Source: Thermoanaerobaculia bacterium (lineage in GTDB: Bacteria > Acidobacteriota > Thermoanaerobaculia > Multivoradales > J023). Taken from it: a stretch of DNA of 64,000 bases. Below, in pieces: positions 6,859 to 62,884 of the stretch. Both the position numbers and the translations under genes were made by a program. The stretch covers positions 248,001 to 312,000 of the forward strand of contig JAUIJL010000004.1 in assembly GCA_030431255.1 (NCBI GenBank), given 5' to 3'. The notes under the pieces were generated by a model. It did no database searches. It was given only the letters and a program-made list of their open reading frames with translations, and was not told where the DNA came from. How positions within the stretch are numbered: the first letter of the stretch is position 1; each line of letters opens with the position of its first letter.

Positions 6859-7194
6859 TCAGTCCAGGGTCGCCCCGGAAGTCTTGGCGACCCGAACGAT
6901 CTTCTTCTTGCCGCCTTCCAACTCGCGGACCTTTCGACCGACGCGAGTCGGTTTGTTGGTCTCAGGGCAGATAAGCATCAAATTGGACAGCTCGATCGGA
7001 GCCTCGCGTTCCAAGATTCCGCCTTGAATCTGACGTTGTGGATTCGGGCGCGTGTGCTTCTTGACCATGTTGACCTGCTCGACGATCGCTTTTCCGGCTT
7101 TTTGATCGACCCGCAGCACTTTCGCTTCGGTTCCGCGATCTTTACCGGCGATCACCTTGACCGTGTCACCTTTTTTGATCTTCAGCTTGGCCAT
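6859..7194 (-). CDS. rplX: 50S ribosomal protein L24
   Basis: L24 is an assembly-initiating 50S protein that later lies near the exit tunnel. The 111-residue product starts [10 protein letters not shown] and has the KOW motif [18 protein letters not shown] near residues 10-27. A longer in-frame start at 7233 would overlap rplN by a few bases and adds non-conserved residues, so the MAKLK start is preferred; AGGAGG lies close upstream (GAGGAGGAATACACGATG). Confidence 0.96.
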
Positions 7195-7229
7195 CGTGTA
7201 TTCCTCCTCGGCTCCAGACGAGCAGAGGC

Positions 7230-7598
7230 TCAAAGAACCTCGGGCGCCAGAGACACGATCTTCATGAACCGACGCTCGCGAAGCTCGCGGGCGATCGGAC
7301 CGAAGACACGGGTGCCGATGGGCTCGTTGTTTGCATCGATCAACACCGCAGAATTCGTGTCGAAGCGGATGTAGCTACCGTCCTTACGACGGGTGGCGTT
7401 ACGGGTCCGGACGATCACCGCCCGCACCACTTGGCCTTTCTTGGCCGTGCCGTCCGGCAGGGCTTCCTTGACCGAAGCGGTGATGACGTCACCAACACCG
7501 GCAGTTTTGCCTGTGGATCCGCCCAAAACCGTAATACAACCGATTCTCTTGGCGCCGGAATTGTCGGCCACTTCGAGGACGCTTCCCATTTGAATCAT
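7230..7598 (-). CDS. rplN: 50S ribosomal protein L14
   Basis: L14 forms an intersubunit bridge and binds the silencing factor RsfS in other bacteria. The 122-residue product starts [19 protein letters not shown] and includes the conserved [24 protein letters not shown] end. Length and sequence match the family. It lies between rpsQ and rplX. Confidence 0.97.
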
Positions 7599-37157: not shown

Positions 37158-37186
37158 ATAATACGAACCGTCACTGGCGATGTCAA
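37158..37186 (-). promoter_or_regulatory. Near-consensus sigma-70 promoter of rplM
   Basis: On the minus strand TTGACA (37181-37186) and TATTAT (37158-37163) are 17 bases apart, with perfect -35 and five-of-six -10 agreement. The start would fall about 80 bases before the rplM ATG. Confidence 0.8.
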
Positions 37187-37320
37187 GGGCTCGCACTAAG
37201 ATCGTGAAGTTTCTCTGCCGGGTGCCGGGGGAATCTCCCGTCGAACGGCGAAGCGTTCACGGGATATGCTCGGGGCCGGCAGAGCATACACTAGGAGCGT
37301 CACTCGGAGGATTTTTTTTC

Positions 37321-38292
37321 GTGACCGCAGAGAACCCCGCACAAAACGCAGAGACCACCATGATCCTCGACGGCAAGGCCGTCGCCTCTCAAATCCATAG
37401 CGACCTCGCACGAGGCGTTCAGCAGTTGATCGCGGAAGGCGGCCGACAACCCAAGCTGGTAGCCGTTTTAGTGGGCGACAATCCGGCCTCCGCCGCCTAC
37501 GTAGGCAGCAAAGCGCGCACTTGCGCCAAGGTCGGCATGGCCGGAGAGACCCTGCGCCTGAGCTCCGACCTGACCCAGGAGTCCCTAGAATCCGAGATCC
37601 GTCGTTTGAACGGCGACCCCGAGGTGGACGGAATTTTGGTCCAGCTGCCGTTGCCGAAACACATCGACGAGCGCCGAATCCTCGAGCTGGTAGCTCCGGA
37701 AAAGGACGTCGATGGATTTCATCCGGTCAATGTCGGCAGGCTCTGGACCGGAGAAGATTGCCTGGCCCCGGCAACCCCCTCAGGCATTGTGGAAATGCTA
37801 CGCCGATGCGACATCCCCATGGCGGGGCGTCACGCGGTGATCGTCGGCCGTTCAAATATCGTCGGCAAGCCCATGGCGGGCCTGCTCTTGCGCGAGAGCT
37901 GCACGGTGACGATTTGTCATTCCCGCACTCGCGACTTGCCGGCCGTCTGCCGAAACGCCGACATCTTGGTGGCGGCCGTGGGCCGTACCGCCATGGTCGA
38001 TGCGAGCTACGTCGCCGAAGGGGCCGTGGTGATCGACGTCGGCATGAATCGGGTCGACGATCAAGACACGGTCCAACGCCTCTATCCGGACCACGAAAAG
38101 AGAGCGGCCCTTTTCGCTAAGAAGGGTTACATCCTGACCGGTGACGTGGACTACCACCGGGTTTTCGACCGAGCATCGGCGATCACGCCGGTCCCCGGCG
38201 GTGTCGGCCCGTTGACCGTCGCCATGGTGGTGGCCAACACCTTGCGCGCCTCCCTGCGAAATCAGAGCCGAGACATCGAGATCGACCTATGA
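37321..38292 (+). CDS. folD: Methylenetetrahydrofolate dehydrogenase / cyclohydrolase
   Basis: FolD interconverts methylene-, methenyl- and formyl-tetrahydrofolate using NADP. I favour the GTG at 37321, which has CGGAGG 10 bases upstream; ATG 37360 also fits the family and would give MILDGKAVASQI. The core has VGDNPASAAYV with the catalytic lysine nearby in YVGSKARTC, DGILVQLPLP, VVGRSNIVGKP and TPVPGGVGPLTVAMV. The stop overlaps the coaE ATG. Confidence 0.93.
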   Translation: MTAENPAQNAETTMILDGKAVASQIHSDLARGVQQLIAEGGRQPKLVAVLVGDNPASAAYVGSKARTCAKVGMAGETLRLSSDLTQESLESEIRRLNGDPEVDGILVQLPLPKHIDERRILELVAPEKDVDGFHPVNVGRLWTGEDCLAPATPSGIVEMLRRCDIPMAGRHAVIVGRSNIVGKPMAGLLLRESCTVTICHSRTRDLPAVCRNADILVAAVGRTAMVDASYVAEGAVVIDVGMNRVDDQDTVQRLYPDHEKRAALFAKKGYILTGDVDYHRVFDRASAITPVPGGVGPLTVAMVVANTLRASLRNQSRDIEIDL

Positions 38293-61295: not shown

Positions 61296-61664
61296 ATGGC
61301 CACCTACACCCTACGCGTCAAAGATCGTTTCGAAGCTTCCCATTGGCTCCGGTCCTACCGAGGAAAACCGGAGCAGATCCACGGACACAGCTGGCAGGTG
61401 GAGGTAGTCCTCGAATCCGATGCTTTAGACGACGAGGGCATGGGCTTCGATTTCGTGGAGATCCGCCGGCAGCTTCGATCCCTGGCTTCCCGCTTTGACC
61501 ATAACGACATCAACAGCGTGCCTCCGTTCGACACCCTAAGCCCCACGACCGAGCATTTGGCACATTGGTTTTGCCATGAGCTGCGGGATCTCATGCCGGA
61601 CGCCGGAGTCGCCGAGGTGACGGTCTGGGAAGGGCCGGACTGCTCGGCTACCTACCGTCCCTGA
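61296..61664 (+). CDS. PTPS-III-like 6-pyruvoyl-tetrahydropterin synthase family enzyme
   Basis: The 122-residue product has the zinc ligands His16 (FEASHWL), His29 and His31 (HGH), plus DHNDIN, PTTEHLA and VWEGPD. The usual catalytic cysteine (C before HGH) is absent; instead PEQIHGH places Glu26 in the ExxHGH pattern of PTPS-III. From family knowledge PTPS-III makes 6-hydroxymethyl-dihydropterin in place of FolB in folate synthesis. QueD is the main alternative but needs the missing Cys. Confidence 0.8.
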   Translation: MATYTLRVKDRFEASHWLRSYRGKPEQIHGHSWQVEVVLESDALDDEGMGFDFVEIRRQLRSLASRFDHNDINSVPPFDTLSPTTEHLAHWFCHELRDLMPDAGVAEVTVWEGPDCSATYRP

Positions 61665-61855: not shown

Positions 61856-62884
61856 ATGGAAAAACCCCCTGAAGCTTCAAGCTCCTACTCATCCCCCAAA
61901 ACGCTACCTACCGACTTGATCCCCGAAGATCTCGGACCGAGTGGTGATCTCGGACCGAGTGGTCCTAAGGCGCCCACAGCCGACGCCTGGCTCCGATACA
62001 CCCTTCCGTCCCTAGCGGTGGCCGGTGGGCTCGGCCTGTTGGAGCTCGCCCGCCAGCGTTTCCAACAAGGCCACATGTTCGCCCCGACCCGCTTTCCCGA
62101 GGGGATTTGGGACGCCGAGGTCCACGGGCTCAACACCGTTGACGTTCACTTTACGAGTGAAGACGGCACACCGCTTCACGGCTGGTGGATGCCCCACAAT
62201 GAAGCCAAGCTGACCGTGGTCTATTGTCACGGCAACTCCGGCAATATCGCCGAGCGAGTGGATGTCTTCCAACAACTGCTACGGCTGAAAGTGAATGTGT
62301 TCGCATTCGACTATCGGGGCTACGGACGCAGCGCCGGATCTCCGAGCGAAGCCGGCGTTTTCTCCGATGTGCGCGCAGCCCTGGACTATTCCGCGGAATT
62401 CCTCGCCCCGCGGCATCGAACGGTGCTCTTCGGCCATAGCTTGGGTGGGGCGATCGCCATCGACGGCGCGCTCCATCGACCGAATATCGCGGGCCTAGTG
62501 GTCCAATCGAGCCTCACTCAGGCTTCGGACATGGCTCGTCACTTCTATCCCGACCTACCCGTTCATTGGATCAGCAGGAATGCCTTCCGGTCGATCGAAA
62601 AGGTGCCCGAGCTAAAGATGCCCAAGCTCTTCATCCACGGTCGGGAGGACTTGACCGTCCCTTACCACCAAGGGGAGCGCCTCTTCAGCGCGGCAGCGGA
62701 GCCTAAATCGTTTCTACCCATCGCCCGAGCCGGTCACAACGATGTGCACCTTTGGGGCGGCCTGCGCTACTTCAGCCATTTGACCCGCTTCGGCCGGCAG
62801 GCGAGGAGGCACGGCGAAACCAGCATAGACGACGATGCTCATCGCCTGCGAACGGCCGGCTCAGCTGTCCAAGTCGAGCCGTAG
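61856..62884 (+). CDS. Alpha/beta-hydrolase
   Basis: The 342-residue protein has a low-complexity N-terminus, one membrane segment (YTLPSLAVAGGLGLLELA) and an alpha/beta-hydrolase domain. The nucleophile is in GHSLGGAI. The HGNSGNIAER oxyanion region and GRED...HNDVH residues fit an ABHD17/FrsA-like serine hydrolase. Substrate is unknown. Its end overlaps the convergent kinase gene by 24 bases. Confidence 0.82.
   Translation: MEKPPEASSSYSSPKTLPTDLIPEDLGPSGDLGPSGPKAPTADAWLRYTLPSLAVAGGLGLLELARQRFQQGHMFAPTRFPEGIWDAEVHGLNTVDVHFTSEDGTPLHGWWMPHNEAKLTVVYCHGNSGNIAERVDVFQQLLRLKVNVFAFDYRGYGRSAGSPSEAGVFSDVRAALDYSAEFLAPRHRTVLFGHSLGGAIAIDGALHRPNIAGLVVQSSLTQASDMARHFYPDLPVHWISRNAFRSIEKVPELKMPKLFIHGREDLTVPYHQGERLFSAAAEPKSFLPIARAGHNDVHLWGGLRYFSHLTRFGRQARRHGETSIDDDAHRLRTAGSAVQVEP

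Follow-up and report, generated by a model that had tools for sequence, protein, structure and literature searches.

The stretch of DNA analysed here (the window, 64 kb in all) carries at 61296..61664 on the forward strand an open reading frame of 122 codons with an ATG start, whose product (excerpt: FEASHWLRSYRGKPEQIHGHSWQ) is of the PTPS-III type and is called type B below. The membership of this 122-aa protein in the PTPS family is certain, the Pfam PTPS model PF01242 having matched it with an E value of 5.2e-35 and 120.5 bits against a cut-off of 22.4. Its motif region reads PEQIHGHSW, in which EQIHGH at residues 26-31 corresponds to ExxHGH. A preliminary description of this DNA had recognised here a PTPS-family enzyme with the ExxHGH pattern of PTPS-III, and this was borne out by the PF01242 match, the PEQIHGH string and the invariance of Glu26 among related sequences. 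The neighbouring genes encode a DAG-kinase-like protein, a metallo-beta-lactamase-fold protein, an alpha/beta hydrolase and a protein kinase. The hydrolase gene lies downstream (61856-62884, +), and in 5 of 19 related loci a homologue of it is likewise found near type B. The folD gene that had been noted elsewhere in the window is also present, as the frame at 37180-38292 (+) matched the FolD models of NCBIfam over residues 60-366.

Motif and predicted active site of the window protein

Besides Glu26 (codon 61371..61373, +), the window protein has His16 (61341..61343, +) and His29-Gly30-His31 (61380..61388, +), the His residues of which are predicted zinc ligands, and Glu112 (61629..61631, +), the predicted pterin-anchoring residue; both roles are presumed from other members of the PTPS family. 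Asp68-His69 (61497..61502, +) is the equivalent of the catalytic Asp-His pair in an alignment of 17 sequences of the order (window included; each genome represented once per motif context). Glu26, His16, His29, His31, His69 and Glu112 were invariant in this alignment, residue 68 being His in 6 of the 17 sequences, and the identical six residues were invariant in an alignment of the window protein with 19 named-record loci, a set of 20 sequences that overlaps with the first. These results imply that genes of this type are not decaying and that the ExxHGH motif is not a matter of chance. The titles of 16 of the 19 loci name Acidobacteriota, Acidobacteria, Thermoanaerobaculia, Thermoanaerobaculum or Holophagales, and the other three comprise one uncultured bacterium, one Eisenbacteria and one Gemmatimonadetes. 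Two hits lacking HGH (L050 of G003 and the partial L094 of G028) were excluded from the motif classes. Genome G003 carries two copies of type B (L048 and L049, on C221 and C228, with 220 and 216 bits), the second of which stands outside the set of 17.

When the window protein is aligned to E. coli QueD (4ntk, mutant C27A), its Pro25 occupies the column of the QueD Cys, and Glu26 falls one column on. The earlier proposal that a Glu replaces the catalytic Cys therefore holds in that the motif has a Glu and no Cys, but Glu26 stands beside the Cys column and not in it. In the malaria PTPS, Glu38 was described as sitting spatially near the position of the Cys side chain (PMC2229834).

As given in PMC5041015, the subgroups of the family are marked by CxxxHGH (PTPS-I/QueD), CxxxxxHGH (PTPS-II), ExxHGH (PTPS-III) and CExxHGH (hybrids), and the signature of PTPS-IV is FGPAQ according to PMC5445326. 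The CxxxxxHGH of the biopterin-type PTPS-II was not found in the window protein, in which GKPEQIHGH has Gly at the place of the Cys, and FGPAQ was absent from its 122-aa sequence. Its Glu is in the same place as that of the PTPS-I/III hybrids, but the hybrids retain the Cys. The best PDB match by sequence was Pyrococcus PH0634 (2dj6/2dtt), which likewise has EDVHGH without Cys and a C-terminal WEG; this protein is archaeal, is a hypothetical protein according to its PDB entry and took no settled position in our trees. With the PTPS of Plasmodium (1y13, 2a0s) the window protein shares the Glu in ExxHGH and a host in which no FolB was found, although the Plasmodium proteins are longer, contain an insert and have their nearer relative in the window's genome in another gene (type C, see below). 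A paralogue with CxxxxxHGH was seen in 13 of 40 relatives (L063, L066, L069, L073, L077 and others), so that several genomes have three to five PTPS genes.

Folate and queuosine genes of the genome

The genome to which the window belongs (G000) is 10.2 Mb in size and 98.8% complete. Following the suggestion of the preliminary description, it was searched for folB, folK and queD. No match to FolB (PF02152) was obtained in three profile searches, in each of which 10 of 14 control genomes were positive, E. coli and B. subtilis included; this agrees with the expectation that the organism may lack FolB. The genes folK, folE and folP are present, and a second PF00809 match, inside a frame of 1309 aa, is probably MetH.

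Three PTPS genes were found, namely type A, type B (the window gene) and type C. Type A, on contig C53, is a separate QueD with CRNLHGHNY (CxxxHGH) and 103.1 bits against the NCBIfam QueD cut-off of 89.25, and the gene adjoining it had its best NCBIfam match in a QueE model (284.8 bits; cut-off 300). The window protein shares with PTPS-I/QueD (TIGR03367; 4ntk) the family and the framework of zinc-binding His, Asp-His and Glu, and TIGR03367 was also its best NCBIfam match. It might on these grounds be taken for a divergent QueD, or else for a degenerate PTPS without a role in folate synthesis. However, the match reached 82.7 bits and so stayed below the cut-off, the Cys of CxxxHGH is missing, and the genome has in type A, with its QueE-family neighbour, a QueD that does exceed the cut-off. 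Against degeneration stand the active-site residues, invariant in 17 of 17 sequences, and the exclusion of FolB by type B shown below. The window gene was accordingly rejected as QueD, and we regard either version of this explanation as highly improbable.

Distribution of type B and FolB

Type B was called at 195 bits or more with a type-B profile, the next-best match having 107 bits. Among 72 genomes of the order, type B was present in 19 and FolB over the cut-off in 47, while no genome had both and six had neither (Fisher p 1.5e-12, uncorrected for kinship). Sub-threshold FolB matches were scored as absent, i.e., 23.5 bits in G026, which carries type B, and 23.2 bits in G279, the cut-off being 31.8. 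The genomes with neither gene were G006, G032, G334 and G338, which are 82-86% complete, together with G007 (100% complete), which has only a CE hybrid, and G010 (94% complete), which carries type C. Type B occurred in families f1, f5, f6 and f9, and FolB in f2, f3, f4, f7 and f8 plus one genome of f1; the exclusion is thus clustered by family and points to few independent switches. One such switch seems to have taken place inside a single genus, where G004 has FolB without type B and G005, only 81% complete, has type B without FolB. The assembly of G004 consists of 500 contigs and gave no FolK match, so the folate pathway is incomplete in that assembly.

In a sample from the whole phylum, FolB exceeded the cut-off in 87 of 297 genomes. 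The motif was read in the best 29 B-like loci besides G000 (29 genomes, out of 282 with a match): Glu was present in all, 11 were without Cys and 18 were CE hybrids, and FolB was found in none of the 29 genomes. The CExxHGH hybrids (L162-L184) are common among these FolB-less Acidobacteriota, making up 18 of the best 29 loci. Among the 40 relatives, on the other hand, six of the seven hybrid-bearing genomes were also FolB-positive, and the hybrid motif is thus no predictor of FolB loss in that set.

Phylogenetic trees were built by a quick method without bootstrap from 128 and 123 columns, the second including 135 of 140 rows after four duplicates and one odd row had been dropped. With the motif columns excluded, the Glu-without-Cys state showed eight changes on the tree, and the starred branches force at least four, which suggests from the sequences that Cys may have been lost repeatedly among PTPS relatives. 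Many forks were unresolved, and the branches of P. vivax PTPS, PH0634 and L202 were long; therefore only the grouping of type C with Plasmodium was used from the trees.

Gene neighbourhood of type B

The genes for FolE, FolK and FolP were searched by tblastn (queries: FolE and FolP of G000, FolK of G010; the control loci were recovered) in 37 stretches that surround type B or one of its relatives and comprise the window, 19 named-record loci and 17 stretches from other genomes, with duplicates among them. No match was obtained in the 64-kb window or in 35 of the 36 other stretches. The sole match was a folE in L153, from an Eisenbacteria relative whose protein is 49% identical to that of the window; this folE (6885-7466, +; PF01227, E 5.4e-76) follows the type-B relative at a distance of 0.6 kb, with one frame between them. 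In L154, the other distant relative, the contig ends too early to show flanking folate genes. A scan for conserved neighbours in the largest clusters of the window's last 10 kb and the 19 loci recognised no folate gene, but it was noisy owing to overlapping GC-rich frames. The neighbourhood was accordingly set aside as evidence for type B except in L153, the context of which lends weak but direct support to a pterin role.

The second ExxHGH paralogue, type C

Type C of G000 (contig C37, 195611-196048; in locus L003, 1453-1956, +) is a protein of 167 aa with AELLHGHNY. It has ExxHGH like the window protein and lacks the catalytic Cys and His, and its gene adjoins one for a TrmA/RlmD-type methyltransferase. 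Its nearest solved relatives in a profile search by sequence are the PTPS of Plasmodium, with E values of 2.1e-28 for 2a0s (aligned through the insert) and 4e-27 for 1y13, and the tree groups it with P. vivax PTPS apart from type B (SH-aLRT 100, with a long branch for P. vivax). Among the loci of its 26 carriers in the 40 relatives, folE is found within 3 kb of type C in 18, and in 12 of these within 1 kb, compared with the one folate gene, that of L153, in the 37 type-B stretches.

These observations raise the possibility that the FolB step is supplied by type C instead, and that the pterin role of the window gene is a different one. In G004, FolB and one frame unnamed by Pfam lie between the TrmA/RlmD-type gene and folE, which is the slot of type C in the genus-mate G005. 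The FolB domain of G004 (L053:4562-5341, -) is part of a protein of 258 aa, the extra C-terminal part of which is unnamed by Pfam. Outside family f4, type C was present in 22 genomes and FolB in 23, with none having both and three having neither, so that type C excludes FolB there as well as type B does. It was also present in three FolB-less genomes without type B, i.e., G006 (86% complete), G032 (82%) and G010 (94%), and among seven carriers of more distant type-C proteins in the phylum, six of which keep the His and have CE, FolB was found in none.

Family f4 stands against this explanation, because all 24 of its genomes have type C together with FolB over the cut-off. In G009, the one f4 genome examined for this, FolB forms the C-terminal part of a FolP-FolB fusion (L118:3733-4965, +) with folK adjoining. 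Moreover, the type-C proteins of the order have no Cys of CxxxHGH, and the catalytic His of the Asp-His pair was missing from all 25 of them that were read, the position being LDT in type C of G000 versus LDHH in Plasmodium. The residues invariant in type C are common to the f4 and non-f4 copies, so that one function for all of them, other than that of FolB, is the simpler reading; combined with the presence of FolB in f4, it follows that type C is not a needed replacement of FolB in that family. In G000, too, folE does not share a contig with type C, and its product has only 38-39% identity to FolE from the loci of G003 and G005 in which folE adjoins type C. The coexistence with FolB in f4 thus weakens the case for type C as an ordinary PTPS-III. 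We kept type C as the main rival of the window gene, but we judge it unlikely that it alone provides the FolB step.

A third explanation is that folate synthesis draws on both ExxHGH paralogues, which might, for instance, take dihydroneopterin in different states of phosphorylation or be active in different circumstances. It would fit the finding that each of the order's 19 type-B genomes also has type C and that G004, a FolB-bearing member of the same family, has neither, and archaeal PTPS-III was mentioned in PMC5041015 as possibly using the monophosphate. However, the f4 genomes have type C although FolB makes a bypass unnecessary there, and no sign of a division of labour was seen, which makes a shared role quite improbable.

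Discussion

Previous studies described the replacement of FolB by PTPS-III, i.e., by Glu-bearing paralogues of PTPS (PMC5041015, PMC3223725), and the Glu-bearing PTPS of the malaria parasite was reported to yield 6-hydroxymethyldihydropterin (PMC2229834). The folB gene was listed, with reference to earlier work, as absent from Acidobacteria among others (PMC4674097). Both the absence of FolB in Acidobacteria and its replacement by PTPS-III are thus already published, and the window gene adds a case. A study by Pribat in 2009 reportedly mentioned Acidobacteria by name and found that E. coli folB could be complemented.

The window protein resembles bacterial PTPS-III (a subgroup of COG0720) in its family and its ExxHGH, and its genome does so in having folE, folK and folP but no FolB match and in belonging to a phylum with reported absence of folB. 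It differs from it in the EQIHGHSW with Pro in the Cys column, in the occurrence of a second ExxHGH paralogue in the genome and in that no FolE, FolK or FolP gene was found in the 64-kb window. The preliminary description had pointed to the folate bypass known for PTPS-III. The genome without FolB and the mutual exclusion of type B and FolB speak for such a role of the window gene; ExxHGH is by itself insufficient to choose between it and type C, which has this motif too, stands closer to the Plasmodium enzymes and is found near folE in many relatives.

On balance, the comparisons of sequences and genomes make it fairly probable that the window gene alone is the enzyme by which FolB is bypassed, in the manner of PTPS-III. 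It is the better candidate for this than type C, a preference also helped by the folE near the distant relative in L153. The course of the reaction can be proposed by analogy with the PTPS-III family, from which the zinc binding, the substrate, the product and the mechanism of the step are inferred. FolE would make 7,8-dihydroneopterin triphosphate as the substrate of the window enzyme, which would bind at a zinc ion presumably held by His16, His29 and His31. Glu26 may serve as the base instead of a cysteine, and cleavage of the side chain at the C1'-C2' bond would leave 6-hydroxymethyl-7,8-dihydropterin, to be converted to dihydropteroate by FolK and FolP. The window enzyme would in this way replace FolB, while the separate QueD on contig C53 would serve queuosine.

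The position of type C deserves further consideration. The literature searched, which covered few subscription journals, contained no description of this branch that we could find, and PTPS-V or PTPS-VI, which are named in PMC5041015, may include it. Type C could tentatively be seen as a new branch of malaria-type PTPS in bacteria, lacking both the catalytic Cys and the catalytic His but keeping the Glu, the Asp and the three zinc-binding His, tied to folE, present beside FolB in one family and perhaps carrying out a reaction of its own on dihydroneopterin triphosphate. Together with the window gene it would then form a two-enzyme pterin branch in G000, and not a one-for-one exchange for FolB. 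We consider this extended picture possible, albeit doubtful.

If the window gene acts as proposed, it would represent a case of PTPS-III with replacement of FolB from a little-studied group of acidobacteria. Of the two ExxHGH paralogues in its genome, only type B is never found together with FolB in any family of the order, and annotation by ExxHGH alone could consequently over-call folate enzymes. The distribution of type B, type C and FolB described here therefore provides both a warning and a test case for motif-based annotation.
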